The notes under the pieces are model-generated. The model saw nothing but the letters and a program-made list of their open reading frames with translations, was not told the origin of the DNA and searched no databases. Shown in pieces: positions 2,441-45,136 of a stretch of DNA of 64,000 bases (the stretch's first letter is position 1; each line of letters begins with the position of its first letter). The position numbers and the translations under genes are program-made. The DNA lies in the NCBI GenBank assembly GCA_026387935.1, contig JAPLKU010000003.1, forward strand, positions 186,001 to 250,000, in the 5' to 3' direction. This DNA is from Gemmatimonadota bacterium. GTDB lineage: Bacteria; Gemmatimonadota; Gemmatimonadetes; Gemmatimonadales; Gemmatimonadaceae.

Positions 2441-2449
2441 TGCCGGAAT

Positions 2450-4108
2450 TTGCCCCCAGTCACGGGCACCCGCCATGACGCGCAAGAGGGATTTTCGTTG
2501 CCCCGGCCGCGCCCCGCCGCCGATATTCGATGGGTCCCCGCACCGCCCCAGCGGACATTCGTCAGGAGTCCTGCCATCGCGTCGAACGGCACCCCGGCCA
2601 TCCAGTGGCGCGAGCAGGCGCGAAGCCAGCTCGCCGGTGGCACGTTCGACCTCCTGATTGTCGGCGGAGGGATCACCGGGGCCGGCATCGCCCGCGACGC
2701 GACGCTCCGCGGATTTTCTGTCGCCTTAGTCGAGCGCGACGACTTTGCCGGTGGCACGTCGAGTCGGTCGTCGCGCCTCATCCACGGTGGCGTCCGCTAC
2801 CTCGAACACGGCTACCTGAAACTCGTGTTCGAGGCCAGCCGCGAGCGCCGCACACTCCTGCGCATTGCACCGCACCTCGTTCGGCCGCTCCAGTTCACGT
2901 GGCCGGTGTACAACGGTTCTCGCCTCCCGCGCTGGAAACTTCGCGCGGGACTCGCGCTCTACGATGCGCTCGCCACGTTCCGAAATGTCGGGCGCCATCG
3001 CGGCCTCTCGCGCGACGGCGTGATTGCCGCCGAGCCCGCGCTCAAGCGCGACGGCCTCAAAGGGGGCGCCACCTACTGGGACGCGGCAACCGACGACGCG
3101 GCGCTCACGCTCGCCAATATCATCGACGCCCGGAACGCGGGGGCCGTCGTCCTCAACCACGCCGGCTTGCAGTCGTTGATCTTCGAGCGCGAACGGGTGG
3201 TCGGCGCCTTGGTGCGCGATGAACTCGCCGGCGAGCTCGTTCGGGTTCGCGCGACCGTGGTGATCAATGCGACCGGCCCATGGACAGATGCCCTCCGCCG
3301 CATGGAGGACCCGTCCGCACCTGCGGCAGTGCTCGGCACCAAAGGCGTTCACATAGCGGTGCCGTCTGATCGAGTTGGGAATCGCGCCGCCGTCACCATG
3401 CTCTCGCCCGTCGATCAGCGGGTCATGTTCTGCCTCCCCGGCACCGACCAGACGATCATCGGCACGACCGATACCCACACCGACGCGCGGCCCAGCGAAA
3501 TCCGCGCCACCCGCGACGATGTGCAGTACCTCCTCGACTCGGCAAATGGATTCTTCCCCAGCGCCAAGCTCGGTCCGCGCGACGTGATAGCCGCCTGGGC
3601 CGGCATCCGTCCGCTCGTCTATAGCGGCAACACGGGCGATCCGGCATCGGCGTCACGTGAACATGCGATCACCACCGGGCCGCGCGGTGTGATTGCGATC
3701 TCGGGCGGGAAACTCACGACTTATCGCGAGATTGCGCAGCAGGTGGTGGACGCGGCCGCACTCCAGCTGGGCCGCAGCGGACATCCCTGCTCAACGGCGG
3801 AGGTGCCGCTCCAGGGCGCCGAACGCTCGCCGGTGTTCGGCCAGCTCTTCGAGCCGATCATCGAAGGCCGGCCCTGGACCCTCAGCGATGCCACGCATGC
3901 CGTCGAGCATGAATTCGCCTGCACACTCACCGACATCCTGGTGCGGCGCACCAAGGTCGCCTTCTCATCGCGCAACCATGGAATTCCCGCTGCGCCGCGT
4001 GTGGCCGCCGCGGTAGCTCGGCACGCGGGCTGGGACACTGCGGAGTGCGCGCGTCAGGTCGAGGCCTATCGCACGGAAGTCGCACGGCTCTTTACGGTCG
4101 ACGACTGA
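2450..4108 (+). CDS. glpD: Aerobic glycerol-3-phosphate dehydrogenase
   Basis: FAD-dependent membrane-associated enzyme oxidising sn-glycerol 3-phosphate to dihydroxyacetone phosphate and passing electrons to quinone. The dinucleotide-binding motif IVGGGITGAGIARDA and the GlpD signature GGTSSRSSRLIHGGVRYLE lie around residues 68-120; a second conserved segment TIIGTTDTHTDA and the FAD-contacting ISGGKLTTYREIA follow, then the C-terminal helical domain. The start is uncertain: only TTG codons (2450 or 2498) are available in frame before the FAD motif, and the first ~50 residues look poorly conserved. It is divergent from fadI, whose start lies only about 10 bases away, so the two promoters must overlap the coding starts. 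Confidence 0.88.
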   Translation: MPPVTGTRHDAQEGFSLPRPRPAADIRWVPAPPQRTFVRSPAIASNGTPAIQWREQARSQLAGGTFDLLIVGGGITGAGIARDATLRGFSVALVERDDFAGGTSSRSSRLIHGGVRYLEHGYLKLVFEASRERRTLLRIAPHLVRPLQFTWPVYNGSRLPRWKLRAGLALYDALATFRNVGRHRGLSRDGVIAAEPALKRDGLKGGATYWDAATDDAALTLANIIDARNAGAVVLNHAGLQSLIFERERVVGALVRDELAGELVRVRATVVINATGPWTDALRRMEDPSAPAAVLGTKGVHIAVPSDRVGNRAAVTMLSPVDQRVMFCLPGTDQTIIGTTDTHTDARPSEIRATRDDVQYLLDSANGFFPSAKLGPRDVIAAWAGIRPLVYSGNTGDPASASREHAITTGPRGVIAISGGKLTTYREIAQQVVDAAALQLGRSGHPCSTAEVPLQGAERSPVFGQLFEPIIEGRPWTLSDATHAVEHEFACTLTDILVRRTKVAFSSRNHGIPAAPRVAAAVARHAGWDTAECARQVEAYRTEVARLFTVDD

Positions 4109-28822: not shown

Positions 28823-30490
28823 ATGATCAGCAACGCAGCGACCCTCGCCCCGGTGTCGGTCGGCCGTCAGGCCGTCGGCCAGTTCATCCCCGCCATTGGG
28901 GAAGCCCCGGGCTTTGGTGATGCGGCCGTGCTCGAAGCACTCGAGCGCACCGATTCGCCTGTCTGGGTTGTCGGCGAAGAGACGCATGGTGGACGACGCA
29001 TGGGTGTCGCATTCGACGGCTCGCTCGACGGCAACGAGAGCAACATCGGATTCAGCGCATACGCGCTTCTCCCGGCGCTGCACGCTGAGTGGTTGGGCGA
29101 CCGCACGTTTGGCGAAGAGCATGGGTGCCGGTATCCGTACGTCACCGGCGCGATGGCCACGGGCATTGCCTCGATCGAACTCACCGTCGCCGCGGCGCGA
29201 GCCGGATTTCTCGCGTACTACGGCACGGGTGGCTTATCGTTCGCGCGCAGTGAAGAAGGCGTTGACGCGATCATGCAGGCGCTGGCTGACATGCCGGACG
29301 CCGCGTGGGGCGCCAATCTGATTCATTCGCCCGACGAACCGTCGCTCGAAGAGCGTCTCGTCGATCTCTATCTCGAGCGCGGCGTCACGCGCATCGAGGC
29401 GTCGGCCTTCATGCAGCTCTCGCCGGCCATCGTGCGCTACAGTGCGAGTGGCCTGCAGGTGGACGCCTGGGGACGGATTCATCGTCCGCACCGCGTGATG
29501 GCGAAGATCAGCCGGCCCGAAGTGGCGCGGCATTTCCTGCAACCACCGCCGGCGCAGCTGCTCGAGCAACTCGTGACGAGCGGAGCGCTCACGGCCGAAG
29601 AAGCTCGGCTCGCGGCGCTGCTTCCAATTGCCGACGATGTCACCTGCGAAGCGGATTCCGGCGGACACACGGATCGCCGCCCGCTATCGGTGTTGCTCCC
29701 GGTGATTCGCAGACTGCGCGACGACCTCACGCCGGCCGGTGGTTGGCCGCGCCCCGTGCGCATTGGCGCCGCGGGTGGACTTGGCGATCCTGAATCGGTA
29801 GCCGCGGCGTTCGCGCTCGGCGCGGACTACGTCGTCACCGGTTCAGTGAACCAGACAGCGTGCGAAAGCGGCACGTCCGACCTCGCGCGCGCGATGCTCG
29901 CGGAGGCGGGCTTGGCCGACGTGATCATGGCGCCGGCCGCCGACATGTTCGAACTCGGTGTTGAAGTGCAAGTGTTGCGCCGCAGCACGCTCTTTGCGCC
30001 GCGCGCGCGAAAGCTCTACGAGATTTACCGCCAGTACTCGAGCCTCGACGAGATTCCCGCGGAACTGCGCGAGCGGCTCGAGCGCGACATTTTCCGCGCG
30101 CCGCTCAATGACATCTGGACCGAATGTGTCCGCTTCTGGACGGCGCGCGACCCCGAACAGGTGGCGCGCGCCGAGCGTGATGCCCATCACCGCATGGCGC
30201 TGGTCTTTCGCTGGTATTTGGGCAGTTCCAATCGGTGGGCCCGCGAAGGCGTGGCTGACCGTCGCAATGACTATCAGATCTGGTGCGGCCCGGCCATCGG
30301 CGCGTTCAACGCGTGGACGGCCGGCACTCACCTCGCCGATCCCGCACGGCGCACGGTGCAGGAAATCGGCTTGAATCTTTTGGCCGGTGCCGTCCGCTGC
30401 ACGCGGGCGGCCCAGCTCCGTGCCGCCGGCGTCCCCGTGCCGGCCAACGCATTTCGTACTTCTCCACGACAGCTTGAGGCTTCGCGATGA
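28823..30490 (+). CDS. pfaD: PUFA synthase enoyl reductase (PfaD / Pfa1)
   Basis: FMN-dependent trans-acting enoyl reductase of polyunsaturated-fatty-acid synthases, 555 residues, within the usual 540-560. It has a nitronate-monooxygenase-like TIM barrel: GAMATGIASIELTVAAARAG (start of barrel), GVTRIEASAFMQLSPAIV, the flavin-binding and catalytic EADSGGHTDRRPLSVLLP, and GAAGGLGDPESVAAAFALGA with YVVTGSVNQ. The C-terminal PfaD-specific region contains FRWYLGSSNRWA and YQIWCGPAIGAFNAW. It is first of the pfa operon; its stop overlaps the next ATG (ATGA). No Shine-Dalgarno is seen; TATTTTTAT lies just upstream, so the message may be nearly leaderless. Confidence 0.93.
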   Translation: MISNAATLAPVSVGRQAVGQFIPAIGEAPGFGDAAVLEALERTDSPVWVVGEETHGGRRMGVAFDGSLDGNESNIGFSAYALLPALHAEWLGDRTFGEEHGCRYPYVTGAMATGIASIELTVAAARAGFLAYYGTGGLSFARSEEGVDAIMQALADMPDAAWGANLIHSPDEPSLEERLVDLYLERGVTRIEASAFMQLSPAIVRYSASGLQVDAWGRIHRPHRVMAKISRPEVARHFLQPPPAQLLEQLVTSGALTAEEARLAALLPIADDVTCEADSGGHTDRRPLSVLLPVIRRLRDDLTPAGGWPRPVRIGAAGGLGDPESVAAAFALGADYVVTGSVNQTACESGTSDLARAMLAEAGLADVIMAPAADMFELGVEVQVLRRSTLFAPRARKLYEIYRQYSSLDEIPAELRERLERDIFRAPLNDIWTECVRFWTARDPEQVARAERDAHHRMALVFRWYLGSSNRWAREGVADRRNDYQIWCGPAIGAFNAWTAGTHLADPARRTVQEIGLNLLAGAVRCTRAAQLRAAGVPVPANAFRTSPRQLEASR

Positions 30491-33400
30491 GCGGATCTCC
30501 AATCGCCGTTGTTGGCCTCTCGGCAATTCTCCCCGGCAGCGACGATATCGGCGCCTTCTGGGAGAACATCCGCGAGGCTCGCGACTGCTTCAGTGACGTT
30601 CCCGAATCGCATTGGCGAATCGAGGACTACTTCGACCCCACGCCACGCGCCAAGGACAAGACGTACGGCAAGCGCGGCGGGTTCATCAACGCGCAACCGT
30701 TCGATGCGCTCGGCTTTGGGCTGCCGCCCTCGTCGCTGCCCAGCACCGATGTCGCGCAGCTGCTCGCGTTGCTCGTCAGCCAGCGTTGCATTGCCGACGC
30801 CGACAATGGCAAGGCGTCCCGGTTCGATCGCAATCGCACCAGTGTGATTCTCGGCGGCGCTGCGACGACGGCGCTCGTCTCGCACATGTCGGGTCGCATG
30901 GCCCAACCGATGTGGCGTCAGGGCCTTCGCAATGCTGGATTTGACGAAGCCAGCGTCGAGCGCGCCTGCGTGGCAATCTCTGATCAGTTCGTGCCCTGGC
31001 AGGAGTCGACGTTCCCGGGCCTGCTCGGCAACGTCATCGCGGGGCGCATTGCAAATCGGTTCGACCTCGGGGGCACCAACTGTGTGCTCGATGCGGCCTG
31101 CGCGAGTTCGCTCGCGGCCGTCTCGATGGCGATGGATGAATTGCGCAGCGGAAAGTCCGACACGGTGATCACCGGTGGCGTGGACGCGCTGAACGACATC
31201 CTGATGTTCATGTGCTTTTCGCAGACGCCGGCGCTTTCGCTCAGCGGCGACTGCAAGCCGTTCAGCGATCAGGCCGATGGCACGATGCTCGGCGAAGGCG
31301 TCGCGATGCTGGCGCTGCGTCGGCTCGAAGACGCCGAACGCGATGGGCACAAGATTTACGCCACAATTCGCGGACTGGGATCGAGCAGTGACGGCCGCGC
31401 GAAGAGCGTGTACGCCCCGCGCCCTGAAGGGCAGGTGAAGGCGCTCGAGCGTGCGTACGTCGATGCCGGCTACAGCCAGGCCACCGTGGATCTCGTCGAA
31501 GCGCATGGTACGGGCACGACTGCCGGCGATGCCGCGGAAGTCTCCGCGCTGAAGAGTGTGTTCGGCGCGGTGGCGAACGGTCGCGAAGCGTGGTGCGCAC
31601 TCGGTTCCGTGAAGGCGCAGATCGGTCACACGAAGGCAGCTGCCGGTGCCGCAAGTCTCGTGAAGGCCGTGCTTGCGCTGCAGCACCAGACGCTTCCCCC
31701 GACAGCAAAGGTTAACAAGCCAAACCCGGCGCTCGGGCTCGAGGGCAGTCCGTTTTACCTGAGCGGCACGGCGCGTCCCTGGTTCAAGCGCGGCGATCAT
31801 CCGCGCCGCGCATCGGTGAGCAGCTTTGGCTTTGGTGGCAGCAATTTCCACGTCACGCTCGAGGAGTACACTGGGCCGAACGTCGCCGCGCGGCACCCGT
31901 ACGGTCCGGTGCAGCTCGTGCTCATTGGCGGGCCGGATGAGAATGCACTTCGTGCCGGACTCGCCGATTTGACCGCGCGCGTCAAGAACACGCCGCAGCT
32001 CGCGTCCTATGCACGCGAGTCGCACGCATCGTTCGATCACAAGGCGCCGATGCGCCTTGCGTTGCTTGTGAACGATTTCTCGGATCTTGTCGCCGCCGTC
32101 GCTGAGGGGCGCCAGGTGTGCGATAAGCCGGGTGATGTGCAGCGCACCCACCGCACAGTGCTGCGCCGTGGTACGCCGGCGCTTGCAGAGAGCGTGGCGT
32201 TCCTCTTCCCGGGTCAGGGCAGCCAGTACCTCGGCATGGGACGCGATCTCGCCTTGCATTTCTCAGAGGCGTTCGCGGTTTGGGAGCGCGCGGCACATCG
32301 CGTTGCCGACGCGGTCACCGATCTGGGCGACGTGGTGTTTCCGCGTCCAGCGTTTGAGCGCATCGAGCGCGAAGCGCATGAAGCACGGCTCCGCATGACC
32401 GCGTGGGCACAGCCGGCGCTTGCCGCCGCCAGCCTCGCGCAGCTCGCGTTGCTTGAGAAGATTCAGTTTGGTCCGAGTGCAGCGGCCGGGCACAGCTTTG
32501 GTGAACTCGTCGCATTGCATGCCGGTGGTGCGTATGACGCAGACACGCTGCTCGACCTCGCGCGTGCACGTGGTGAGGCAATGGCGTCCTGCGCCACGCC
32601 AACTGACGGCATCGCGATTGACGCGGGCAGCATGTTCGCGGTCGCGGGAGACGTCGTCACCGTGCAGGGATTGCTCGATCGGTTCGGCGACGGTCGCGTC
32701 GTCGTGGCCAATGACAATCATCCGCGCCAGACGGTGCTCAGTGGTCCGACGGACAGTCTCCGGGCATTCGGCGCCTCACTCACACAAGCCGGCCTTTCGC
32801 ATCAGGCCCTTCCGGTCGCGGCGGCGTTTCACTCGCCGCTCGTGGCGCCGGCCGCTGCGCAGTTTGCCGCCGAAGTGTCGGGAACCGAATTCGGTGGGCT
32901 GCACTTTCCGGTCGTGGCGAATGGCACGGCGCAGCCGTACGAGAACGATGTCGTCGCGGTTCGCGAACGACTCGCGCACCAGTTGGCGCATCCCGTGCGT
33001 TTCCGCGAGAGCGTCGATGCCCTCTACGAGCTTGGCTGCCGAGTGTTTGTCGAAGTCGGCGCCGGCAACGTCCTGTCTGGTCTTGTGAAGAAGTGTCTCG
33101 CCGACCGACCGCATGTGACGGTGGCGCTCGACACGCCGGGTGAACATGGCGTGCGCGCCTGGTGGATTGGCATGGCAGAGCTTGCGACGCTGGGGCTCGC
33201 GGTGAACCTCGCCGCGATTCAGCCGGGCGTGCCGGCATTCGACGCCGTGCCGGCGCCGCCGAGCGGCCCGGCCGTTGTCGCCGTCGGGGGTTCGAATCTC
33301 GGGAAGCCGTACCCACCGAAGCCCGGCGCGATGCCGGCATCGCCGGCGCCGACCGTGCAGCTGCCAGTCGCGCATCTGGCAGAGGCGGCGCCAGTCGACG

Positions 33401-34113
33401 CAAACGACATCACGTCTGAAGAATTTTTCGAAGAACCGATTGACATCACGGCGGAGCACGCGCTCTCGCCAGACTACGCCGAGTCCTATGACGGCGATAC
33501 CGAACTTGAGGTGTACGAGGACATGGACGATCAGAACTCATCGCTGCTGCTTGAAGCACAGCGACTGACACAACAGGCGATTCTCGACAGTTTCGCCATG
33601 ACGATGCGCGGCATCACTGGCAATGGCGATGCTCCGGCACCGACAATCGCGTCGCGCCCGGTGGTTCGCGTCGCGGCTCCCGCTCCCGTGCGCGCTCCCG
33701 TGCGCGCTCCAGCAGCGGCGCCCGTCGCCGCGCCGCCGGCGCCACACGCCGCCAAGGCGAACGGCGCGAGCCCGGCGGCGGCTCCGGCCCCGAAGCCTGC
33801 ACCGGTCGCCGCTCCAGTCGCTACTCCGGCTCCGGCCGCTGCATCGGCAGCTGACGGTGCGGCAATGGTGCTTGGTGTGATCGCCGAGAAGACCGGTTAT
33901 CCGGTTGACGCCCTCGCGCCGGAACTCGAGCTCGAAGCCGATCTCGGAATCGACTCGATCAAGCGCGTCGAAATTCTTGCGGCGCTGAGCGACAAGATGC
34001 CCGGGATGGACCCGAAGAGCATCGATCCGGCGAAGGTTCGTCGCGTGAGCGACCTCCTTGTGTTACTCGGGGAGGCGCCCCCCGTGGGCCCCAAGGGGCC
34101 GCTGGGCCGGTAG
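30487..34113 (+). CDS. pfaA: PUFA synthase PfaA/Pfa2, N-terminal part: KS-AT-ACP
   Basis: 1208 residues. Ketosynthase: Cys205 in DAACASS, His340 in EAHGTGT and His381 in GHTKAAAG, complete triad. Acyltransferase: FPGQGSQYLGMG near 573 and Ser670 in GHSFGE. Then an acidic linker, an Ala/Pro-rich linker, and one acyl carrier protein (residues ~1115-1195) with phosphopantetheine Ser1157 in DLGIDSIKRVEI. Known PfaA proteins continue ACPn-KR-DH; here the frame ends 13 residues after the ACP at TAG while the KR-DH part continues in the -1 frame (see 34086 and 34329). Only one ACP is present where most PUFA synthases have three to nine. ATGA overlap with pfaD. Confidence 0.93.
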   Translation: MSGSPIAVVGLSAILPGSDDIGAFWENIREARDCFSDVPESHWRIEDYFDPTPRAKDKTYGKRGGFINAQPFDALGFGLPPSSLPSTDVAQLLALLVSQRCIADADNGKASRFDRNRTSVILGGAATTALVSHMSGRMAQPMWRQGLRNAGFDEASVERACVAISDQFVPWQESTFPGLLGNVIAGRIANRFDLGGTNCVLDAACASSLAAVSMAMDELRSGKSDTVITGGVDALNDILMFMCFSQTPALSLSGDCKPFSDQADGTMLGEGVAMLALRRLEDAERDGHKIYATIRGLGSSSDGRAKSVYAPRPEGQVKALERAYVDAGYSQATVDLVEAHGTGTTAGDAAEVSALKSVFGAVANGREAWCALGSVKAQIGHTKAAAGAASLVKAVLALQHQTLPPTAKVNKPNPALGLEGSPFYLSGTARPWFKRGDHPRRASVSSFGFGGSNFHVTLEEYTGPNVAARHPYGPVQLVLIGGPDENALRAGLADLTARVKNTPQLASYARESHASFDHKAPMRLALLVNDFSDLVAAVAEGRQVCDKPGDVQRTHRTVLRRGTPALAESVAFLFPGQGSQYLGMGRDLALHFSEAFAVWERAAHRVADAVTDLGDVVFPRPAFERIEREAHEARLRMTAWAQPALAAASLAQLALLEKIQFGPSAAAGHSFGELVALHAGGAYDADTLLDLARARGEAMASCATPTDGIAIDAGSMFAVAGDVVTVQGLLDRFGDGRVVVANDNHPRQTVLSGPTDSLRAFGASLTQAGLSHQALPVAAAFHSPLVAPAAAQFAAEVSGTEFGGLHFPVVANGTAQPYENDVVAVRERLAHQLAHPVRFRESVDALYELGCRVFVEVGAGNVLSGLVKKCLADRPHVTVALDTPGEHGVRAWWIGMAELATLGLAVNLAAIQPGVPAFDAVPAPPSGPAVVAVGGSNLGKPYPPKPGAMPASPAPTVQLPVAHLAEAAPVDANDITSEEFFEEPIDITAEHALSPDYAESYDGDTELEVYEDMDDQNSSLLLEAQRLTQQAILDSFAMTMRGITGNGDAPAPTIASRPVVRVAAPAPVRAPVRAPAAAPVAAPPAPHAAKANGASPAAAPAPKPAPVAAPVATPAPAAASAADGAAMVLGVIAEKTGYPVDALAPELELEADLGIDSIKRVEILAALSDKMPGMDPKSIDPAKVRRVSDLLVLLGEAPPVGPKGPLGR

Positions 34114-34135
34114 CTGTTGCTACCCACCCAGCGGC
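34086..34135 (+). other. Candidate programmed -1 frameshift element between ACP and KR of PfaA
   Basis: Codons GGC CCC preceded by G form the heptamer G GGC CCC (34086-34092) in the zero frame, matching X XXY YYZ. Five nt later (34098) a stem-loop begins: GCCGCTGGG pairs with CCCAGCGGC (34098-34106 with 34127-34135), a 2x2 internal loop, then GGTAGC with GCTACC around a TGTT tetraloop. The zero-frame stop TAG (34111-34113) is in the stem. A -1 slip joins the ACP to the open KR-DH frame. A C6 run at 34078-34083 makes a sequencing error or real 1-base deletion the main alternative. Confidence 0.5.
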
Positions 34136-34328
34136 TGACCCTGTTGAGCGTCGTGTAGTCGAGTGGCTCCCCGTTGCAGCGCCGGGAAGCCCCGCGCGTC
34201 GCATCGGCGAATGCAGGAGCGTTGCGGTCGTTGGCGGCACGAGTGAGCTCGGCGAACGCCTTCGGCGGGCACTGAACGACCGCGGCATCGCGCTTACCCT
34301 CACTCCAGCGGCGAGCGCGGATGTCGTC

Positions 34329-36257
34329 GTGCTCGCCCACGCGCTCGGCACCGACGGTTCCGTTGACCGCGCATTCGCAACGCTGAGCGAGTTGGCCGGC
34401 CGCACCACGCCGCCGCGCGTGCTCGTCACGGCTGGAACACACTCGCGTGAAAGCGCGGGTCTCAACGGCCTCGTCAAGACGGCGGCGCGTGAGTGGAATG
34501 CCGAGTGGCTTTGTGTCTCAGTGGAAGACGCCGAGGCGTTTGCGTCGCCGCTCGCTGATGAGCTGGCCTACGGAGGCGGCGCACGCGAAGTCCGGATTGG
34601 TGCGCGCCGCGAAGAGCTCGTGCGTGTCGCCACGACGGCGTCAGGCCCGCTCCGCGTCGTCCCTGCTGGACCATGGCTGGTGTCGGGTGGCGCCCGCGGC
34701 GTTACGGCTACGTGCTGCATCGCACTGGCCAAGGCTGGTATGCGTCAAGTGGTGCTGCTCGGCCGCACCACTCTGCGCGATGAACCGGCGACCTGCGTGC
34801 ATGCTCGTACGGAAGCGGAACTCAAGCAGGCACTGATCGCGGCGGCAACAGGCAAGCCGAATCTCGCTGCCATTCAGCGCGAGGCGCGCGAGATTCTCGC
34901 GCTGCGCGAAGTGCGTCATACGATTACCCAGCTGAACGAGGCCGGCGCGCAGGTTCGCTACGACGCGGTGGACATCACGGACGCCGCCGCCGTCACCGCG
35001 CTTGCGGACGACGTGCGGCGTACATGGGGTCCGATTCGCGGCATCGTGCATGGAGCCGGTGTGCTCGCCGACAAGCGACTCGGCGAAAAGACGCCAGAGC
35101 AGTTCCACTCGGTGATGCACACGAAGATCGCCGGCGCGAACGCGCTGCTCACGGCATGCGCCAACGATCCACTCGAGATGATTTGCTTTTTCTCTTCAGT
35201 GGCGGCGCATAGCGGCAACGTCGGGCAGAGCGACTACGCTGCGGCGAACGCCATGCTCGACCAATGGGCCGGCACCGAAGCCGCGGCACGCGGCACCGAT
35301 TGCCGCGTCGTCAGCATCGCGTGGGGTCCGTGGGACGGCGGCATGGTGACTGCGGCGCTCGCGAAGCATTTCACCTCGCAGGGCATCGGCCTCATCCCGC
35401 TCGACGCGGGCGCGAACGCGTTCGTCCAGGAACTTCGCGCCGGATCGCATGTCCAGGTGCTGCTCGGTTGCGGCCTCGAGGGCGCGGAGCCGGTGCCGAA
35501 GACCGTCGTGCGTTTCGACTCGATGCGCGCGCCATACCTGCGCGACCATGCGATTGCCGGAACAATCGTCGTTCCGATGACGCTCGCACTCGACTGGCTG
35601 CTCGCTGCCGGCGCCCGCGAAGTGGGACCCAGCGTTGAACTTCGGGACATCACGCTGCTCAAGGGCGCGATTGCCACTGACGGCATGGCCGACCTGTTGC
35701 TCGCCGTGACGCCGGCAACCGAAGGCACCACTCGCACCGCAACACTCACACATCCCGACGGACGGCCGGCGTACCGCGCGTTCATAACGGCGGCGGCCGG
35801 CTCGACGCCGGCTCCGATTGCGATTCCGCAGCCATCGGGCGATCCGCTGCCTGACTGCTGCGTGGCGCCGTATGACGAAGCCCTCTTCCATGGTCCAGCG
35901 TTTCACACGATTCGCCAGGTGATCCGTTGCGACGCGCATGGCATCTCGGCGCGATTGACTACAGCCGGTGCAATGCGCTGGCCTGGCGGCTGGCAGCTCG
36001 ACCCGCTTGCCATGGACGGCGCGCTACAGCTGCTGCGGGTTTGGAGCTGGGCCGAGGATGGGCGCCCGAGTTTGCCAACGTCCATCGCGCGCTGCCGCGT
36101 CTGGAGCGAATGGCCAACGAACGGCGAAGTCGTCTGCGTACTGACGGCCAAACGCGAGAATGCCTTCCGCTTGCGCGGGGACGCGCAGTTTGTCGATCCG
36201 TCGACGGGACGCGCACTGGCGTCGCTCGCAGGAATCGTCATGCACGTGCAAGCCTAG
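34329..36257 (+). CDS. pfaA: PUFA synthase PfaA/Pfa2, C-terminal part: KR-DH (separate frame)
   Basis: Ketoreductase and dehydratase part of PfaA. From the GTG at 34329 there are 642 residues, but the same frame is open without ATG, GTG or TTG back past 34092 and encodes the KR structural subdomain (VAVVGGTSELGERLRRALN), so this is not a natural gene start. KR: NADPH motif VSGGARGVTATC near 118 and catalytic Ser290, Tyr303, Asn307. DH: His407 in DHAIAGTIVVP (HxxxGxxxxP) and Asp563 in LDPLAMDGALQ. All catalytic residues are intact, arguing that the protein is still made, most simply as a fusion with the upstream KS-AT-ACP by a -1 shift. The stop directly abuts the pfaC ATG. Confidence 0.88.
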   Translation: MLAHALGTDGSVDRAFATLSELAGRTTPPRVLVTAGTHSRESAGLNGLVKTAAREWNAEWLCVSVEDAEAFASPLADELAYGGGAREVRIGARREELVRVATTASGPLRVVPAGPWLVSGGARGVTATCCIALAKAGMRQVVLLGRTTLRDEPATCVHARTEAELKQALIAAATGKPNLAAIQREAREILALREVRHTITQLNEAGAQVRYDAVDITDAAAVTALADDVRRTWGPIRGIVHGAGVLADKRLGEKTPEQFHSVMHTKIAGANALLTACANDPLEMICFFSSVAAHSGNVGQSDYAAANAMLDQWAGTEAAARGTDCRVVSIAWGPWDGGMVTAALAKHFTSQGIGLIPLDAGANAFVQELRAGSHVQVLLGCGLEGAEPVPKTVVRFDSMRAPYLRDHAIAGTIVVPMTLALDWLLAAGAREVGPSVELRDITLLKGAIATDGMADLLLAVTPATEGTTRTATLTHPDGRPAYRAFITAAAGSTPAPIAIPQPSGDPLPDCCVAPYDEALFHGPAFHTIRQVIRCDAHGISARLTTAGAMRWPGGWQLDPLAMDGALQLLRVWSWAEDGRPSLPTSIARCRVWSEWPTNGEVVCVLTAKRENAFRLRGDAQFVDPSTGRALASLAGIVMHVQA

Positions 36258-39200
36258 ATGAGCGACTTCGCGCCGATCGCAATTGTCGGGCGCGGCTGCG
36301 TCGTGCCCGGGGCGAACGATCCGCGCACGCTCTGGGCGCGCGTGCTCTCCGGCGATGACCTCACGGGGCCGAGTTCCGCGGAGCGTTGGGGACTGGACCC
36401 GGGCCGCGTCTGCAACGATCCGCGCGAGCCGAGTGCGAGTGCGCGCGGCGGATACGTCACCGGTTTTGACGCGCTCTGGCGTCACGACACCTTTGCGCTG
36501 CCACCAGAAGCGCTAGTAGGAATACCGGAAGGCTGGCGCTGGCTCATGCACGCCTGTGCGCAAGCGCTCACCGAGGCCGGAGTCGGACTCGACGGTGGTG
36601 CGCGCGCAGGTCTCGTGTTGGGAAGCCTGGGATACGCAACGCGTGAGTTTGCGGATGCGGCAGCGGCACGATGGTGCGGCGCCGAGGGCGGACCGCATCC
36701 TGCACTCGAAGGGCAGACCGGCGCGCTGCGGTGGGCGAGCGACGCGTGTGGTGTGCACGGGCCGCGCGTCGCGCTCGATGCAGCATGCGCGTCTGGACTC
36801 TACGCACTGAAGACCGCCTGCGACCTGCTGCACGCGCGGCGCGCTGATGTGGTGCTTGCTGCCGGCCTCAACGCGGCCGACGATTTGTTCCTCCATATCG
36901 GCTTCACGGCGCTCGGCGCGCTGTCGCGGCGCGGCCGAAGCACGCCGCTCAGTACCGAAGCCGACGGACTCCTGCCTGCTGAGGGGGCGGCAGTCGTCGC
37001 GCTCAAGCGACTCGATGATGCCGTCGCCAATGGCGATCATATACTCGCGATTGTCCGTGGCGTCGGACTGAGCAATGACGGACGTGGCCCAGGGTTACTG
37101 GCTCCGACCACAGCCGGCCAGCAGCGCGCGATTCGCGCGGCATGGGCGGCCTCAGGACTCGACCCGGCCACGCTTGACTACCTCGAGTGCCACGCGACGG
37201 CGACACCCGTCGGCGATCGTGAGGAGATCCTCAGCGTGCGCGCGGTGTTCGGCGATGCGCACCGGCTGCGCCTGGGTTCGCTGAAGGCGCAGCTCGGCCA
37301 TCTGATCACCGCGAGTGGGGGAGCCGCGCTCATCAAGCTCTGCGGCGCGTTCGAGGCGGGAAGCCTGCCGCCGGCACCGAGCATCGCGTGCGAACTGCCG
37401 TTGCCCGAGATCGCCGAGAGCGAATTGGTCCTGGAGCGCACGGCCATTGGATGGCAGCCTGGTGAGCATGCGCGGCGCGCGGCGGTGGATGCGTTCGGCT
37501 TTGGCGGTTGCAACGCGCACGCGATTCTCGAAGGGCCTGAGGGCGTTGAGGCGCTCGTTGCGAAACGCCGCGGTCGTCCGAAACCGGTCGTCGCACCGGC
37601 CGTCGGCGACGATCTCGCCATTGTGGCATGTGAGCTCTCGGTTGGTGAGGCAGGCGATTCCGCCGCGATCCTGCGCGTCCTCATGGGGCGTGAAGCGCCA
37701 AGCCGCCGCGTGCGCGATTTGCAGCTCGCCGTTCGCGGCCTTGGCTTTCCTCCTGCCGATCTTCGCCACGCCCTGCCGCAGCAATTGCTCGTATTGCGTG
37801 CGGCGCAGCGACTCAAGCCCGCGATCGAAGGCCTCGACCGCTCGCGCGTCGGCGTGTTCATTGGTGCCGACGTTGATCCTGCCGGTGCCCGTCACGGCTG
37901 CCGGTGGCGGCTCGACCATTGGCTGCAGCATGCGGCCACAGCAGCCGAGCGCGATGCCGTCGTGCCAGCGCTCGAAGCGGCGGGGGTCCTCGGCACCATG
38001 CCGAACATGCCTGCCAATCGCATCAACAGCGCTCTCGACCTTGGCGGCGCGGGACTTGTCCTGAGCGAAGGCGAGAACTCCGGCGGCTGGGCGCTTTCGC
38101 TCGCAGCCGACGCTATCGCGCGCGGAGAACTCGACGCAGCCCTCGTTGGCGCCGTTGATGCATCCGGTGGCGCGTTCGGTGACGACCCGGAGCGCGCTGA
38201 TGCTGTTGTGCTGCTGCTCGTCGTTGCCGGCTCGAAGGTCGGTGATCGGGCCGTGCTCGCCCGCATTGCGCGAACTTCCGAAGTCGATACCGTACCCGAC
38301 GTACTCGCGCCGTGGATGGACACAGGCATTGCGCGCGAGCTGGTGGATATCGGCGTCGCTGCGTTGTGCTGTCATCATGCACTGCTGCCGGGCACGCCGG
38401 CCCTGCCATGGACTGGAGCGAATCGATCCTGTCAGTTGCATGGCTGGGACGTCTTCGCGACGGGGAATGCCGCCGGCGTCAGTGACGAGCCAGCAGCCGC
38501 GCTTACGCTTGCGCCGGATCGCGCCTCCATTGGGCAAAAGCGCATGGGAGAAGTCGCGTTCGTATTCACAGGCGCAGCCGCCGCGTACCCTGGCGCAGGC
38601 CGAACGCTCTGGCAGGGGATTCCCGAGCTCGCCGCCGAGTTACGCGCACGCGCACCGAATCTGACCAGCGCGCTCCCACGACTCGTCAGCGGCGCACCCC
38701 TGTCATTTCTCGACCAGCTCCAGCTCGCGACACTGCTGAGCCAGTCGCATGCGCGACTCCTTGCGCTCCTCGGCGTCAGGCCCGACGCGACGCTCGGATT
38801 GTCGAGTGGCGAGACGAACGCACTTCTCGCGAGTGGCGCATGGACCGACCCAGATGGCCTTTTCGCGGCCGTTTCAGAATCGGGGATGTATGACCTGCAC
38901 CTCGCCGGCGAGCATCGCACGCTGCGCGCCTCGTGGGGCGTGACTGCCGATTCCACGGTGAACTGGCGCTGCTACCGTGTGCTGCACTCTGTGGACGCTT
39001 TGAAAACGGCTATCGCCGCCACGACTGGCCAGGTGCCGCGCGAGGTGGTGCGACTACTGATCGTCCATCACGCCAACGACGTGGTCATCGGCGGAAGCGA
39101 CGAAGCCTGCCGCGCACTGATCGCGAAACTCGGCGCGCGTTCAACGCCGCTCGGCCATGACCTCCTGGTCCATTGCCCGGAGCTTGAGCCCTTTGCCGCT

Positions 39201-42200
39201 GAGTGGTATGCGGTGCACCACCGGCCGACGCAATCGATCACCACGCCGCGCCTCTACGCGAACGCAATCAATGCGCCGTTCGTTCCCACGCGCGAACGAT
39301 GCGCAGAGTTGCTGCTTGCCCAGGCGCGCGACACCGCCGTGTTCAGTGCGACGGTCGAGCGGGCCTACGCCGACGGCGTGCGTGTGTTCATCGAGATGGG
39401 ACCGCGCAGTGCCTGCACCGCATGGATTGGTGAGATTCTCGGCGCGCGTCCGCATTGCGCGGTGTCGCTGGATGGTTCACGTGGATCGCTACGCGATATC
39501 GCCGCTGCGTTAGCGCAGCTCATTGAATCCGGCGTGGCGGTGGACCGTGATCGGTGGAATTCGTGGATGTCGCAACTGCGCAGCATTGCCGATATCGCGG
39601 CTTCGGCGGACGGCATGCTCGCGCTTGCCGGTCATCGCTCGTTGCCCGAGTTCCACGCGCCGAATTGCACCACGCTTGCTGTACCTGCAGCGCCCAAGCT
39701 CGCGCCGGTGCTGCCCGACCTGTTGCACGTCGTACAGGCGCCGGCGCTGATCATTGCGCCTGAGCCGGTGAAGCGGCAGAAGATTGTGCACGCACAACCG
39801 ACGAGTCTGGCACTCGCCGCGTTGGCAGACACGCAGGCCGCGCTGCTCCGTGTGCACGACATCCTTGTGTCGCAGGCGAAGGACCGGTCGCTGCGCGTTT
39901 CTCGCAAGGGACAGGTCGCGCGCCCGACTCACGCCGTACCCGATGTCACTCCGCCAGTCGTCGCTGAAGCGCCAACGCCGCGCGTCTATCCCGGACCGCA
40001 GTTCGATCGCGCGCAACTCGAGCATCTCTCGCATCGACGGATCTCGGAAGTCTTTGGCCCGGCATTCGCCGGGCAAGATGACTATCCGCGCCAGGTGCGG
40101 ATGCCGATGCCTCCGCTCCTCCTCGCTGATCGTGTGCTCGGCATTGATGCGATTGCAGCTTCAATGAAGACGGGCACGATCTGGACGGAGACGGATGTTC
40201 GCGAGGACTCTTGGTATTTGCAGGATGGTCGCATGCCCGCCGGCATTCTGATTGAAAGCGGACAAGCCGATCTGCTGCTTATCAGTTGGCTTGGGATCGA
40301 CCTCACGAATCGCGGAGAGCGGATCTACCGGCTGCTCGGTTGCGAACTGACCTTCGCCGGCGGACTTCCATCCGTCGGCGAAACATTGCACTACTCGATT
40401 GCGATCGACTCACATGCACGGCATGGCGACGTCGGGCTCTTCTTCTTTCATTATGACTGCACGGTGGACGGCGCACTTCGCCTCCGAGTCAAGGAAGGTC
40501 AGGCGGGCTTCTTCACCGACGCCGAGCTGGCCGACAGCGCCGGCATTCTGTGGAATCCACTGGAAGACCTGCCGGATGCATCTGCGCCGATTGCAGGAGC
40601 AAAGCCGGGGATCGACGTGCGTTCCGCGTACGACGAAGCGGCGGTGAGTGCTTTTGCCGCCGGCAATATTCTTGAAGCGTTCGGCGATTCGTTCAAGCGA
40701 GGCGCCGGTCACACGCGCACGCCGCGGATTGCCGGCGGGCGGATGCAGTTGTTCGCCCGCGTGGACGAACTCGATGCAGACGGAGGACCGTGGAAACGCG
40801 GCTATCTGCGGGCGAGTCTGCCGATTACGCCCGACTCCTGGTTCTTCGCCGGCCACTTCCATAACGATCCGTGCATGCCCGGCACCCTGATGTTTGAGGG
40901 ATGCCTGCAGACGATGGCGTTTTACATGGCCGCGCTGGGCTACACGGTGGATCGCGACGGCGCCGTATTCGAGCCCGTGCCCGACCGCCCGTATCAGCTG
41001 CGGTGTCGCGGTCAGGTCACGCCAAAATCGAAGATGGTGACATACGAAGTGTTCGTCGCCGAGTTGCACGACGGACCGGTGCCGACGCTTGTTGCCGATT
41101 TACTCTGCACGGTGGACGGTCTCAAAGCGTTCCACTGCGGCCGAATGGCACTGCGCCTCACGCCCGACTTTCCACTCGGTGCCCGCGAACTCGCCGCGAT
41201 GGATGCGGATGTTGGAGAGGTCGCAGAGCAGAATGGTTTCCGGTACGGACAAGCGTCGCTGCTGGCGTGCGGCAGTGGCGATCCGGTCGCTGCGTTCGGC
41301 GAACTCTATTCGTCGCTTCCACCTGGCCGCCGAGTTCCGAGGCTTCCGGGCCCGCCCTATCATTTTATCAGTCGGGTTCGCTCGCTGAGCCATGCGCCTG
41401 GTGGCATGCAGGCCGGTGTGGTCGCCGAAACTGCGTACGACATCCCGCCCGATGCGTGGTACATCGACGCGCACCCAACCGGACAGATGCCCGCCTGCGT
41501 GCTTATCGAGGCAGCGCTGCAGCCCTGCGGTTGGCTGGCGTCGTACGTCGGTTGCGCCGTCGTTGAAGCAGACGAGGTGTACTTCCGGAATCTCGACGGC
41601 AAGGGTGTGCTGCACCGGCCCGTGCGCGCCGATGACGGAACGCTCGTCGTGAAAGCAAAATTAAAATCGCTGTCCCGCGCCGGTGGCATGACGCTCGTGT
41701 CGTTCGATGTGGCCTGCACCGTTGGCGACGAAGCGATCTACGACCTCACCACGACATTTGGATTTTTTCCCAAGGCCGCGCTCGAAGGCCAGGCCGGGCT
41801 CACGGCCACGGACGAGCAGCGCGCGTGGATGTCGCTGCCCGGAACGGTGGACCTGCTCGCAACACTCGACGCGGCGTCGCGCGAACTGCTGCCCGCGCCG
41901 ATGCTCCGCATGTGCGAGCGCGTCACGCACCGCAATGTGGCCGACGACGGCAGCGCGCAGCTCCGCGGCGAAAAGACTGTTCGTGCCGACGAGTGGTTCT
42001 TCAAGGCGCACTTCTTCCAGGATCCGGTGCAGCCGGGTTCGCTCGGCATTGAAGCGTTGGTGCAGCTGCTGCAGGCGCATCTCCTGCTCTCCGGTGCCAA
42101 GGCTGCGATTCCCGACGGCGCATTCGCCGACCTCTCGGCGACGACACCGGGCACGTGGCAGTTCCGCGGCCAGGTGCTGCCGCACGCCAAACAGGTGACG

Positions 42201-44405
42201 CTCACGCTCGACGCTGAGCCAATCGAGCGCACGCCGTCGGGTTGGCGCGCGCGTGCGGCGGGCTCCGTCTGGGTGGACGGGCTTCGCATTTATGGCGTGC
42301 AGGGACTGAGCGTGTCGTGGGAAGGAACGCCCACCGACGGCAACTCACTGCGCTTCGATGCCGCCACAGAACCGTGGTGGAACGATCATCGTCCCACCTA
42401 CACGGTTCCGGTGGTTCCAGCGATGGCACTCGCCAGTCGGGCACTGTCGCTGGTGGCAGATGGCCAGAAGGTCATCGGCATCGAAGGCATGACGTTCCGA
42501 CGCTGGCTCTCGCTCGAATCGGCACGAACGCTTTGTGTTGAACGAGCGGGCCAGAGCTTCACGCTGGTGGATACCGACCGCGGCGATATCGTCTGTGACG
42601 GCACGTTGATGGTTGGAACGGCGTACCACAGCGCCCCGGCGCCGGTCGCGCCCCTCGGCGCCGACGCGGTGCCGCTCGCCAACCTCTATGACAACGGCGC
42701 GCTGTTCCACGGTCCGGCGTATCAGCGCCTCCGCGGTGGCCGCCGGTCGGCACAGGGCGCCGACGTCACGATCGCGTTTGAGACTGCGCTCGACACGCGC
42801 GAGCGCGTGTCGCATTTCGTCCTCGACGCGGCGCTACACGCGGTACCGCACGACGCCATGCAGGAGTGGTTCCCTGACGTGGCCCCCGGACAGATCGCGT
42901 ATCCGGCGATGATCGAGCGCGTCGAACTCTTTGCCGATGCGCCGAGCGACGGCGAATGTGAAGTACGTGTGCGTCCTGCGGGTCTGCGTGAAGGGTCGGC
43001 GCGGTATCCGCGAATCCATGCGCAACTGCTGCTTAATGGATCGGTGTGGGCCGAGCTGACGCTGGTCGAGGTCTGCCTCCCGGCCACGCGCCTTGGCTCA
43101 CTGAGCGGCACCGCTCGGCGAGCGTTCCTGCGCGACGGCGAGTTCGTGGCCGGCGCGCGCCTGAGTGACGAAGCGTCCGGTGTAAGCACGCTCACCCCCC
43201 GCATCGTAACTCAGGCTGATTGGCTCGCAGGCACTGTGGATACTGTGTACGGACTACCCGCGAGCTCACCAGATCGCATCGCGACAATCGCGGCCACTGA
43301 GCATGCGGCACAGCGGATCGCGGTGCATCCCCGCGCGATTGCCATTGGCCAGAATGGAACGGTCTCGACGCCGGCGCTGCCGCTCCTCGAGTACCAGGTG
43401 GCGATCGAACGATCGGGCCGGTCAGTAACCGTGCGCGACGTGGCACCACCGGCCGTCGATATCGCACGAATTCTGAAGTGGTGGAACGACACCGATTGGC
43501 AAAGCGCGAGTCCCGATATCCGCGCGCTTTTCATGGCGGCCACCGCACAGTTCGTGAGCGGCGTGCGCCTGCTGGATCCGGCGTCGCGCGAGACGATCGC
43601 GACAGAGCCGATTCTGCTGCTCGCCAACCATCAGGTCGCCATCGAGTCCGCACTCGCGGGGATTGCGCTGGCACCGATACTCGGCCGACCGCTCCTCACC
43701 GTGGCGAAAGCGGAGCATCGCAGCACCTGGGTCGGCCGGCTTGCGCTTCAACTGAACGATGCGCGCCGTGGCGACGCGATCATTTTCGTTGACCGTACGC
43801 GCCAGGAAGAGATGCTCGGCCATCTGCAAACGATGGGACGCGTCGCGCATTCGGGCGCCCGCGCGCTGTTGGTCCACGCTGAAGGCACACGCTCGCTCGC
43901 CGGCAGCCAACCCGTGACAACGGTGAGCGCCGTATGGAGCGACCTCGCAGTGCAGGCGGGCCTCACCATCGTGCCGCTTCGTTTTGCGCGCGGCTTGCCG
44001 AGCGCAGGTGTGGATGTCCGCAAGGACTTCCCCGTTGGATATGGCGCGCAGGAACTCATCCTCGGCCGGCCGATTTCGGGAGCATCATTGGCGGCACTGC
44101 GCCTCGATCAGCGGCGCACGCGCGTGCTGGATGGATTCGCCGAACTCGACGCCTTCGATGGCGAGCCGCGCGGTGATGCAGCCCTTTCCGCGCAGGTCGA
44201 GGCCGCGTGTGCGAAGTGGTCGCTCGACGAAATGCGGGCCGTGTTTCTTGTTATGCAGGCGCGCGCGGCCGGCTGGGCGCTCGACGCGAACGGGCTGCCG
44301 ACCGACGCATACGCCGCTGCGGACGAACGGCATCCATTCTGGGCCTGGTTCCACGGCCCAGCGGCAAACGCGGTGCGTGTAGCGCAGCGCGACAGCGCGC
44401 AGTGA
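36258..44405 (+). CDS. pfaC: PUFA synthase PfaC/Pfa3: KS-CLF-AT-DH-DH-DH-acyltransferase
   Basis: 2715 residues. KS: Cys177 (DAACASG), His312 (ECHATATP, a variant of EAHGTGT) and His348 (QLGHLITASG). CLF-like degenerate KS ~450-690, with LGGAGLVLSEGENSGG at ~595 where the Cys would be. AT ~765-1090, Ser849 in GLSSGE. Two FabA-type double-hotdog DH units ~1240-1990: His1533 in GHFHNDPCMPG and His1918 in AHFFQDPVQPG. PKS-type DH ~2030-2300: His2044 in NDHRPTYTVP and VLDAALHAV. C-terminal PlsC-type acyltransferase from ~2440: NHQVAIE (His2458, x4 then Glu instead of Asp) and HAEGTRS (Glu2542). This order, including the terminal acyltransferase, is that reported for myxobacterial Pfa3. GTGA overlap with the next gene. 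Confidence 0.92.
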   Translation: MSDFAPIAIVGRGCVVPGANDPRTLWARVLSGDDLTGPSSAERWGLDPGRVCNDPREPSASARGGYVTGFDALWRHDTFALPPEALVGIPEGWRWLMHACAQALTEAGVGLDGGARAGLVLGSLGYATREFADAAAARWCGAEGGPHPALEGQTGALRWASDACGVHGPRVALDAACASGLYALKTACDLLHARRADVVLAAGLNAADDLFLHIGFTALGALSRRGRSTPLSTEADGLLPAEGAAVVALKRLDDAVANGDHILAIVRGVGLSNDGRGPGLLAPTTAGQQRAIRAAWAASGLDPATLDYLECHATATPVGDREEILSVRAVFGDAHRLRLGSLKAQLGHLITASGGAALIKLCGAFEAGSLPPAPSIACELPLPEIAESELVLERTAIGWQPGEHARRAAVDAFGFGGCNAHAILEGPEGVEALVAKRRGRPKPVVAPAVGDDLAIVACELSVGEAGDSAAILRVLMGREAPSRRVRDLQLAVRGLGFPPADLRHALPQQLLVLRAAQRLKPAIEGLDRSRVGVFIGADVDPAGARHGCRWRLDHWLQHAATAAERDAVVPALEAAGVLGTMPNMPANRINSALDLGGAGLVLSEGENSGGWALSLAADAIARGELDAALVGAVDASGGAFGDDPERADAVVLLLVVAGSKVGDRAVLARIARTSEVDTVPDVLAPWMDTGIARELVDIGVAALCCHHALLPGTPALPWTGANRSCQLHGWDVFATGNAAGVSDEPAAALTLAPDRASIGQKRMGEVAFVFTGAAAAYPGAGRTLWQGIPELAAELRARAPNLTSALPRLVSGAPLSFLDQLQLATLLSQSHARLLALLGVRPDATLGLSSGETNALLASGAWTDPDGLFAAVSESGMYDLHLAGEHRTLRASWGVTADSTVNWRCYRVLHSVDALKTAIAATTGQVPREVVRLLIVHHANDVVIGGSDEACRALIAKLGARSTPLGHDLLVHCPELEPFAAEWYAVHHRPTQSITTPRLYANAINAPFVPTRERCAELLLAQARDTAVFSATVERAYADGVRVFIEMGPRSACTAWIGEILGARPHCAVSLDGSRGSLRDIAAALAQLIESGVAVDRDRWNSWMSQLRSIADIAASADGMLALAGHRSLPEFHAPNCTTLAVPAAPKLAPVLPDLLHVVQAPALIIAPEPVKRQKIVHAQPTSLALAALADTQAALLRVHDILVSQAKDRSLRVSRKGQVARPTHAVPDVTPPVVAEAPTPRVYPGPQFDRAQLEHLSHRRISEVFGPAFAGQDDYPRQVRMPMPPLLLADRVLGIDAIAASMKTGTIWTETDVREDSWYLQDGRMPAGILIESGQADLLLISWLGIDLTNRGERIYRLLGCELTFAGGLPSVGETLHYSIAIDSHARHGDVGLFFFHYDCTVDGALRLRVKEGQAGFFTDAELADSAGILWNPLEDLPDASAPIAGAKPGIDVRSAYDEAAVSAFAAGNILEAFGDSFKRGAGHTRTPRIAGGRMQLFARVDELDADGGPWKRGYLRASLPITPDSWFFAGHFHNDPCMPGTLMFEGCLQTMAFYMAALGYTVDRDGAVFEPVPDRPYQLRCRGQVTPKSKMVTYEVFVAELHDGPVPTLVADLLCTVDGLKAFHCGRMALRLTPDFPLGARELAAMDADVGEVAEQNGFRYGQASLLACGSGDPVAAFGELYSSLPPGRRVPRLPGPPYHFISRVRSLSHAPGGMQAGVVAETAYDIPPDAWYIDAHPTGQMPACVLIEAALQPCGWLASYVGCAVVEADEVYFRNLDGKGVLHRPVRADDGTLVVKAKLKSLSRAGGMTLVSFDVACTVGDEAIYDLTTTFGFFPKAALEGQAGLTATDEQRAWMSLPGTVDLLATLDAASRELLPAPMLRMCERVTHRNVADDGSAQLRGEKTVRADEWFFKAHFFQDPVQPGSLGIEALVQLLQAHLLLSGAKAAIPDGAFADLSATTPGTWQFRGQVLPHAKQVTLTLDAEPIERTPSGWRARAAGSVWVDGLRIYGVQGLSVSWEGTPTDGNSLRFDAATEPWWNDHRPTYTVPVVPAMALASRALSLVADGQKVIGIEGMTFRRWLSLESARTLCVERAGQSFTLVDTDRGDIVCDGTLMVGTAYHSAPAPVAPLGADAVPLANLYDNGALFHGPAYQRLRGGRRSAQGADVTIAFETALDTRERVSHFVLDAALHAVPHDAMQEWFPDVAPGQIAYPAMIERVELFADAPSDGECEVRVRPAGLREGSARYPRIHAQLLLNGSVWAELTLVEVCLPATRLGSLSGTARRAFLRDGEFVAGARLSDEASGVSTLTPRIVTQADWLAGTVDTVYGLPASSPDRIATIAATEHAAQRIAVHPRAIAIGQNGTVSTPALPLLEYQVAIERSGRSVTVRDVAPPAVDIARILKWWNDTDWQSASPDIRALFMAATAQFVSGVRLLDPASRETIATEPILLLANHQVAIESALAGIALAPILGRPLLTVAKAEHRSTWVGRLALQLNDARRGDAIIFVDRTRQEEMLGHLQTMGRVAHSGARALLVHAEGTRSLAGSQPVTTVSAVWSDLAVQAGLTIVPLRFARGLPSAGVDVRKDFPVGYGAQELILGRPISGASLAALRLDQRRTRVLDGFAELDAFDGEPRGDAALSAQVEAACAKWSLDEMRAVFLVMQARAAGWALDANGLPTDAYAAADERHPFWAWFHGPAANAVRVAQRDSAQ

Positions 44406-45136
44406 ACGCGACACGGCCGGCGGGGCCGCTCAGCGTCCGCCTCGGAATGGACGCGCTTGCCTTGGTGGTGCGACCCACGCTGAACGTCCTGATGAATCGG
44501 ACATGGGAGGGTCTCGAACATCTCCCGCGCGGCGGATTCATCATGTGCCCGAACCATCTGACGGAAATCGATCCGTTCCTGATCGGCCATATGCTGTACA
44601 GCAACGGCATCATTCCGCACTTCCTTGCCAAGCATTCGCTATTCCAGATTCCCGTGCTCGGCGCGTGGTTGCGCTGGGCGGGACAGATTCCGGTTGATCG
44701 CCGCGGTGGAGCGACGGCACTTGAGTCGCTCGCCGTTGCGCGGCGCGTGCTCGATCGCGGTGGGGCCATCATCGTCTATCCTGAAGGGACTTTGACGCGC
44801 GATCCAGCCCTATGGCCGATGCGCGGCCGCACTGGAGCGGCACGACTCGCGTTTGACACGCAAGCGCCGGTGATCCCTGTCGCGCACTGGGGCGCACACG
44901 AGCTATTGCCCCAGTATGCGCGGCGCGTCAGACCCTTCCCCCGAAAGACTTCTCGCGCGTCGATCGGTCCGGCGGTTGATCTCGACGACCTGCGGGGGCG
45001 TGGCATCGATCGCGCCATGCTCGAGACCGCGACCGACCGTATCCAGGACGAGACGACGGCGCTCCTCGGCATACTTCGCGGCGCCACGCCACCGGCGGTT
45101 CGGTTCGAGATGGCCACCGCGCGTTCACTCTACTGA
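44402..45136 (+). CDS. PlsC-type 1-acylglycerol-3-phosphate acyltransferase
   Basis: 244-residue acyltransferase with the canonical motifs that the PfaC-fused domain lacks: NHLTEID (H-x4-D), FLAKHSLFQIPVLGAWLRW, PVDRRGG and YPEGTLTRD. It should esterify an acyl chain to lysophosphatidate. The GTG overlaps the pfaC stop (GTGA), placing it in the pfa operon, and it is the third acyltransferase-type gene or domain in the window. It may have specificity for the synthase product, moving it to the membrane lipid; that is inferred from position only. An internal ATG at 44447 is an alternative start. Confidence 0.88.
   Translation: MNATRPAGPLSVRLGMDALALVVRPTLNVLMNRTWEGLEHLPRGGFIMCPNHLTEIDPFLIGHMLYSNGIIPHFLAKHSLFQIPVLGAWLRWAGQIPVDRRGGATALESLAVARRVLDRGGAIIVYPEGTLTRDPALWPMRGRTGAARLAFDTQAPVIPVAHWGAHELLPQYARRVRPFPRKTSRASIGPAVDLDDLRGRGIDRAMLETATDRIQDETTALLGILRGATPPAVRFEMATARSLY

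Follow-up and report, generated by a model that had tools for sequence, protein, structure and literature searches.

Results

A pfaA gene distributed over two overlapping frames

We analysed a window of 64,000 nucleotides from a Gemmatimonadota bacterium (GenBank assembly GCA_026387935.1, contig JAPLKU010000003.1); the features described below lie on its forward strand and are numbered from its first letter. The pfaA gene is flanked by two intact genes. A PfaD-like enoyl reductase (28823-30490; TIGR02814, 621.6 bits for a cut-off of 449) overlaps its start, and a PfaC-like protein with KS, AT, three FabA-type DH and an acyltransferase domain is encoded directly 3' of it (36258-44405). A separate acyltransferase gene (44402-45136) follows that for the PfaC-like protein, which has a C-terminal acyltransferase of its own, and the region 36258-45136 has the appearance of a lipid synthase cluster of unusual make-up, with a PfaA that carries one ACP.

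PfaA itself is encoded in two frames. The zero frame (30487-34113) comprises KS, AT and a single ACP and ends in DLLVLLGEAPPVGPKGPLGR, followed by the stop TAG at 34111-34113. The linker, psi-KR, KR and DH continue in the -1 frame (34092-36257), which is free of stops across 33909-36257 and in which the earliest ATG, GTG or TTG is a GTG at 34329, within psi-KR and 218 nt 3' of the zero-frame stop. An earlier note on this DNA had described the zero-frame end after the ACP, the shift of KR-DH to the -1 frame and the lack of a start codon before 34329, all of which held when followed base by base; the KR residues Ser290, Tyr303 and Asn307 and the DH residues His407 and Asp563 that it listed as intact (counted from GTG 34329) are likewise all present. 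Fused PfaA proteins show homology to the -1 frame as far upstream as approximately 34140, far 5' of this GTG. Against the PfaA profile TIGR02813, the zero-frame part scored 899.1 bits (best stretch residues 4-913) and the -1 part 280.3 bits (profile positions 1911-2555), so that the two parts match the beginning and the end of the profile, in that order. Each score is below the curated cut-off of 1010.1 and their sum exceeds it; the joined protein was not scanned. Translation of the zero frame alone is predicted to yield a short form of 1208 aa (126 kDa), and the zero frame joined to the -1 frame a full-length PfaA of 1923 aa (201 kDa).

Three putative frameshift elements at the ACP/KR junction

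Where the two frames meet, the zero frame reads GTG GGC CCC AAG and thereby contains the heptamer G_GGC_CCC (34086-34092), which meets the slippery pattern X_XXZ_ZZN; the ORFs of the window have 9 zero-frame heptamers of this pattern in 5,331 codons. After a spacer of 5 nt, a stem-loop of 9 bp, an internal loop, 6 bp and a TGTT loop (34098-34135) encloses the TAG and is a putative 3' stimulator. Heptamer, spacer and stem-loop were already part of the earlier note, with coordinates that proved correct throughout. Folded in isolation, the stem-loop can be extended to 34094-34142. The 48-nt stretch 34093-34140 has a minimum free energy of -33.2 kcal/mol (z = -4.9 versus dinucleotide shuffles; z = -5.1 over 55 nt), and a fold of -33 kcal/mol or lower was found in only 25 of 51,364 sampled 48-nt windows of the same genome. 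Among control linker windows, 0.8% reached even z = -4. A third element, absent from the earlier note, is the Shine-Dalgarno (SD)-like sequence GGGGAGG at 34069-34075, a putative 5' stimulator located 10 nt 5' of the heptamer. Its predicted duplex with the anti-SD has an energy of -11.0 kcal/mol, while -10.9 kcal/mol was reached by 0.8% of 1,904 control positions in the linkers of fused homologs. SD, heptamer and stem-loop are thus arranged in the order known from dnaX and with canonical spacing. In E. coli assays, G_GGC_CCC falls into a weaker class (CCN A-site codons, mixed X/Z) outside the most efficient motifs, and it is not among the three motifs that remained below threshold with the IS3 pseudoknot (PMC4066793).

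KR-DH is recurrently out of frame at the same junction in split relatives

We found no close relative of the window's pfaA in the same genus, order or phylum or among viral contigs; a similar gene was found in no relative from the genus, and from the order only in a weak one. Since a close relative is lacking, conservation of the window's own site cannot be assessed, and distant homologs were used for the family comparison instead. In 80 such homologs (about 32-42% identity), pfaA is normally a single frame. Where the frame is broken, the break lies at the ACP/KR border in seven cases (L018, L019, L027, L036, L042, L066, L074) and elsewhere in the approximately 6-kb gene in three. With the border taken as about 150 nt, we calculate the chance of such clustering at about 1e-9, which rules out random error as an overall explanation for the breaks but leaves fission possible.

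In total, about 23 other species have KR-DH out of frame at the ACP/KR junction, nearly always in -1. Five Paenibacillaceae species have kept A_AAA_AAG directly 5' of a TAG, with KR-DH in -1 and no start codon at the junction that is conserved among them. L066 and L160, which are 56% identical, have kept G_GGA_AAG followed by TGA or TAA, and L177 and L178 have kept A_AAA_AAG followed by TAA. Eight species around L027 share C_CCY, an upstream SD-like GGAGG or GAGG and a C/G-rich hairpin. The heptamer is G_GGA_AAA in L018, G_GGA_AAC with a 12-bp hairpin in L170, and C_CCT_TTC followed by TGA in L205. Named species with such split sites are Paenibacillus curdlanolyticus (A_AAA_AAG before TAG) and Actinomadura barringtoniae (G_GGA_AAA). 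In E. coli, A_AAA_AAG and G_GGA_AAG rank within the top three motifs by efficiency, and G_GGA_AAA and C_CCT_TTC belong to efficient classes (PMC4066793).

A zero-frame heptamer is present in 10 of 11 split groups versus 25 of 129 fused genes (Fisher 3e-6), and a strong heptamer in 8 of 11 versus 16 of 129 (Fisher 3e-5). The 11 groups include L019, which has a different frame offset and an A10 run and is not evidence for ribosomal slippage. In a FastTree phylogeny of KR-DH with 163 rows, the split state requires at least nine changes; deep branches of this tree, such as that joining the window and L074, are weak. L124, L210, L099 and L241 were not treated as frameshift sites but attributed to fission or local error. 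In L111/L112 (genome G566, Paenibacillaceae), the conserved junction shift is accompanied by a second frame break inside KR, which represents error or decay.

Several fused relatives with a mirror-image signal

The nearest fused sisters of L066 have kept its heptamer, such that a -1 slip would lead to a stop one codon later. The junction letters are GGGAAAATCTGA in L040 and L164, GGGAAAGCCTGA in L041 and L162, and GGGAAAGCATAA in L165, and these sisters differ from L066 and L160 by one base just 3' of the heptamer. A single indel can therefore flip the polarity, with both products persisting. Lujinxingia vulgaris is a named species with the fused GGGAAAATCTGA junction. L198 and L201, the sisters of L205, and also L206 have C_CCT_TTT_GA with an immediate -1 stop; CCCAAAAGCTGA is found in four actinobacterial fused genes (L119-L121, L123), and L246 has another such site. 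Overall, 16 of the 129 fused junctions combine a strong heptamer with a -1 stop no more than two codons away, for a codon-shuffle expectation of 0.95 on average and at most 5 in 500 runs; this combination is enriched 27-fold over the remainder of the same genes. As the 129 rows are related, the effective numbers are smaller, corresponding to about five lineages. SD-like sequences accompany the fused mirror sites as well, in most cases 9-10 nt upstream of them, and a strong stem-loop is present at several (-38 kcal/mol in L175). L193 and L194, fused sisters of the L027 group, carry nearly the same C/G-run hairpin after the ACP, with C_CCT_TTT upstream, as if this hairpin were older than the change of frame.

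The earlier note had named relatives with an uninterrupted frame and without the signal as a finding that would refute programmed frameshifting. This condition is fulfilled only in part. Most relatives are indeed fused in frame, but the split -1 state has recurred independently, several groups retain slip site and frame from one species to the next, and in several fused relatives the signal is present in mirror image. The note's reading of the junction as a -1 programmed frameshift site thus gains support from the recurrence of the split -1 state with slippery heptamers, and we regard programmed frameshifting in the pfaA family as almost certain.

Alternative explanations for the window's junction

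The main rival, as already held by the earlier note, remains a base lost by sequencing or assembly error in the C6 run, in GGGCCCC or in the hairpin, the true gene being fused in frame. The C6 run (34078-34083) is the longest homopolymer at the junction, and homopolymers and GC-rich hairpins are spots prone to base loss. The genome consists of 28 contigs and no reads were available for it; moreover, most homologs are fused, including those of the same class, and no strong heptamer was found in the linkers of the fused same-class relatives. To set against this, a joint two-strand coding scan over about 308 kb of sampled stretches of the window's genome, the window included, picked out six places at which the frame changes on the same strand with no usual start codon, among them the PfaA junction; in two of the others, the second frame opens only 3' of the stop. 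Apart from this junction, unexplained frame transitions thus number no more than a few per 308 kb, which makes a random error in the approximately 70-nt PfaA linker improbable without excluding it. The break furthermore sits among three putative stimulatory elements, where the family recurrently shows the -1 frame, and the neighbouring PfaD and PfaC genes are intact. We consider such an error unlikely, with roughly a one-in-eight standing that keeps it ahead of the other alternatives. Another of the six frame changes from the scan, at 118443 (G000 contig C1, L150), leads into an ORF that starts like glutamyl-tRNA synthetase (ITRFAPAPTGYLHLGHV) and has no ATG, GTG or TTG at its apparent start; it possibly uses a non-standard start codon.

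Fission into pfaA1 (KS-AT-ACP) and pfaA2 (KR-DH), the latter with its own start or translationally coupled, has precedents in the literature (PMC13291983): secondary lipid synthases of types D and H have split pfaA genes that were described as separate genes (Shulse and Allen 2011, PMC3098273), and in type D the break also lies between ACP and KR. The term "frameshift" does not appear in that paper. L241 is a clear case of fission with a GTGA overlap and a strong SD, and L099 and L124 are similar to it. Unlike types D and H, however, the window's KR-DH overlaps in the -1 frame and lacks a start codon at the junction; no ATG, GTG or TTG precedes 34329, and the SD of that GTG is weak (-3.6). The conserved split groups, too, keep slip site and frame rather than start codons at the junction. 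L066 alone has a GTG with a strong SD overlapping the stop, by which reinitiation is possible, whereas L160 does not. Fission is very improbable for the window. L099, which comes from the window's GTDB family, shows a PfaA-like gene in three pieces (595-3195), namely ACP, psi-KR with its own ATG, and KR-DH with a ATGTCTGA overlap, with an A8 run before the first stop.

Equally improbable is a recent real indel in a gene that is being lost or is rescued solely by background slippage. The scarcity of relatives in genus and order makes it conceivable that a foreign cluster is being lost, but the operon is otherwise intact, as are all checked active-site residues, and the stimulatory elements would have to be a coincidence. 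Transcriptional slippage at the window's junction was rejected because it needs an A/T run of about 8-9 or more and the longest run is C6; it is possible in L036, L074 and L019, which have A9/A10 runs.

Discussion

We interpret the window's junction as a dnaX-type programmed -1 ribosomal frameshift site, with a probability of roughly 0.8 in the absence of reads and expression data. Ribosomes would first translate KS-AT-ACP. At G_GGC_CCC, pairing with the SD 10 nt upstream and the stem-loop 5 nt downstream may promote slippage of the tRNAs onto GGG CCC. Slipped ribosomes would read on through KR-DH to full-length PfaA (1923 aa), while those that do not slip would stop at the TAG and release KS-AT-ACP (1208 aa). 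One message would hence give two proteins in a ratio set by slip efficiency. The sequences directly show the two frames, the three elements with their spacing, and recurrence and conservation within the family, whereas slippage itself, its efficiency and the use of both PfaA products are inferred.

Programmed frameshifting is rare in ordinary bacterial enzymes, and many of the known bacterial cases are found in mobile elements. The closest parallel to the pfaA junction is dnaX (tau/gamma), which shares the upstream SD, slippery heptamer and downstream stem-loop, and products with a common N-terminus. The upstream SD belongs to E. coli dnaX frameshifting, and dnaX exists, or is predicted to exist, in both polarities, i.e. 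a shift leading to a stop one codon later, or a zero-frame stop immediately following the site with the shift giving the long product (PMC5009743); both are also seen in the pfaA layouts. Yet the genes are unrelated, the window has G_GGC_CCC in place of A_AAA_AAG as its heptamer, the stop follows 18 nt after it inside the stem-loop, and pfaA has neither experimental proof nor a known need for a fixed ratio. Magnesium chelatase genes, according to the main text of the GeneTack survey (Antonov 2013, PMC3711429), use a -1 frameshift in some species and have fused homologs elsewhere; they are likewise a cellular bacterial enzyme with frameshifted and fused forms, but a different protein. That main text reports no frameshift in a PUFA or polyketide synthase, and one polyketide cyclase cluster is classed there as translational coupling.

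The earlier note knew of no recoding event in a PUFA synthase, and our search of the open literature likewise turned up no report of recoding for pfaA or for other PUFA synthase or polyketide genes. -1 programmed frameshifting is a known mechanism; pfaA is a new gene family for it, with similar signals at the same place in distant relatives across several bacterial groups and no description in the searchable papers.

From their sequences, the split and fused layouts predict one and the same pair of products, KS-AT-ACP and KS-AT-ACP-KR-DH. We lean, with clear reservation, towards the broader proposal that in several phyla a dnaX-type -1 frameshift between ACP and KR gives rise to two isoforms of PfaA-type synthases. 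Under this proposal the signal arose anew or was retained on many occasions, and single indels switched its polarity, because a set ratio of ACP-bearing short subunits (KS-AT-ACP) to complete ones matters for the synthase. That the two products serve to provide extra KS-AT-ACP subunits in a mixed complex is a guess, and the need for them has not been shown.

If true, this recurrent megasynthase case with two polarities would explain some of the split pfaA annotations and would predict that PUFA-like synthases contain a KS-AT-ACP subunit not recognised so far. Cloning the gene for heterologous expression, whether in the form of two ORFs or in one fused frame, would then alter the product ratio, and the subunit stoichiometry of lipid assembly lines would become directly testable.
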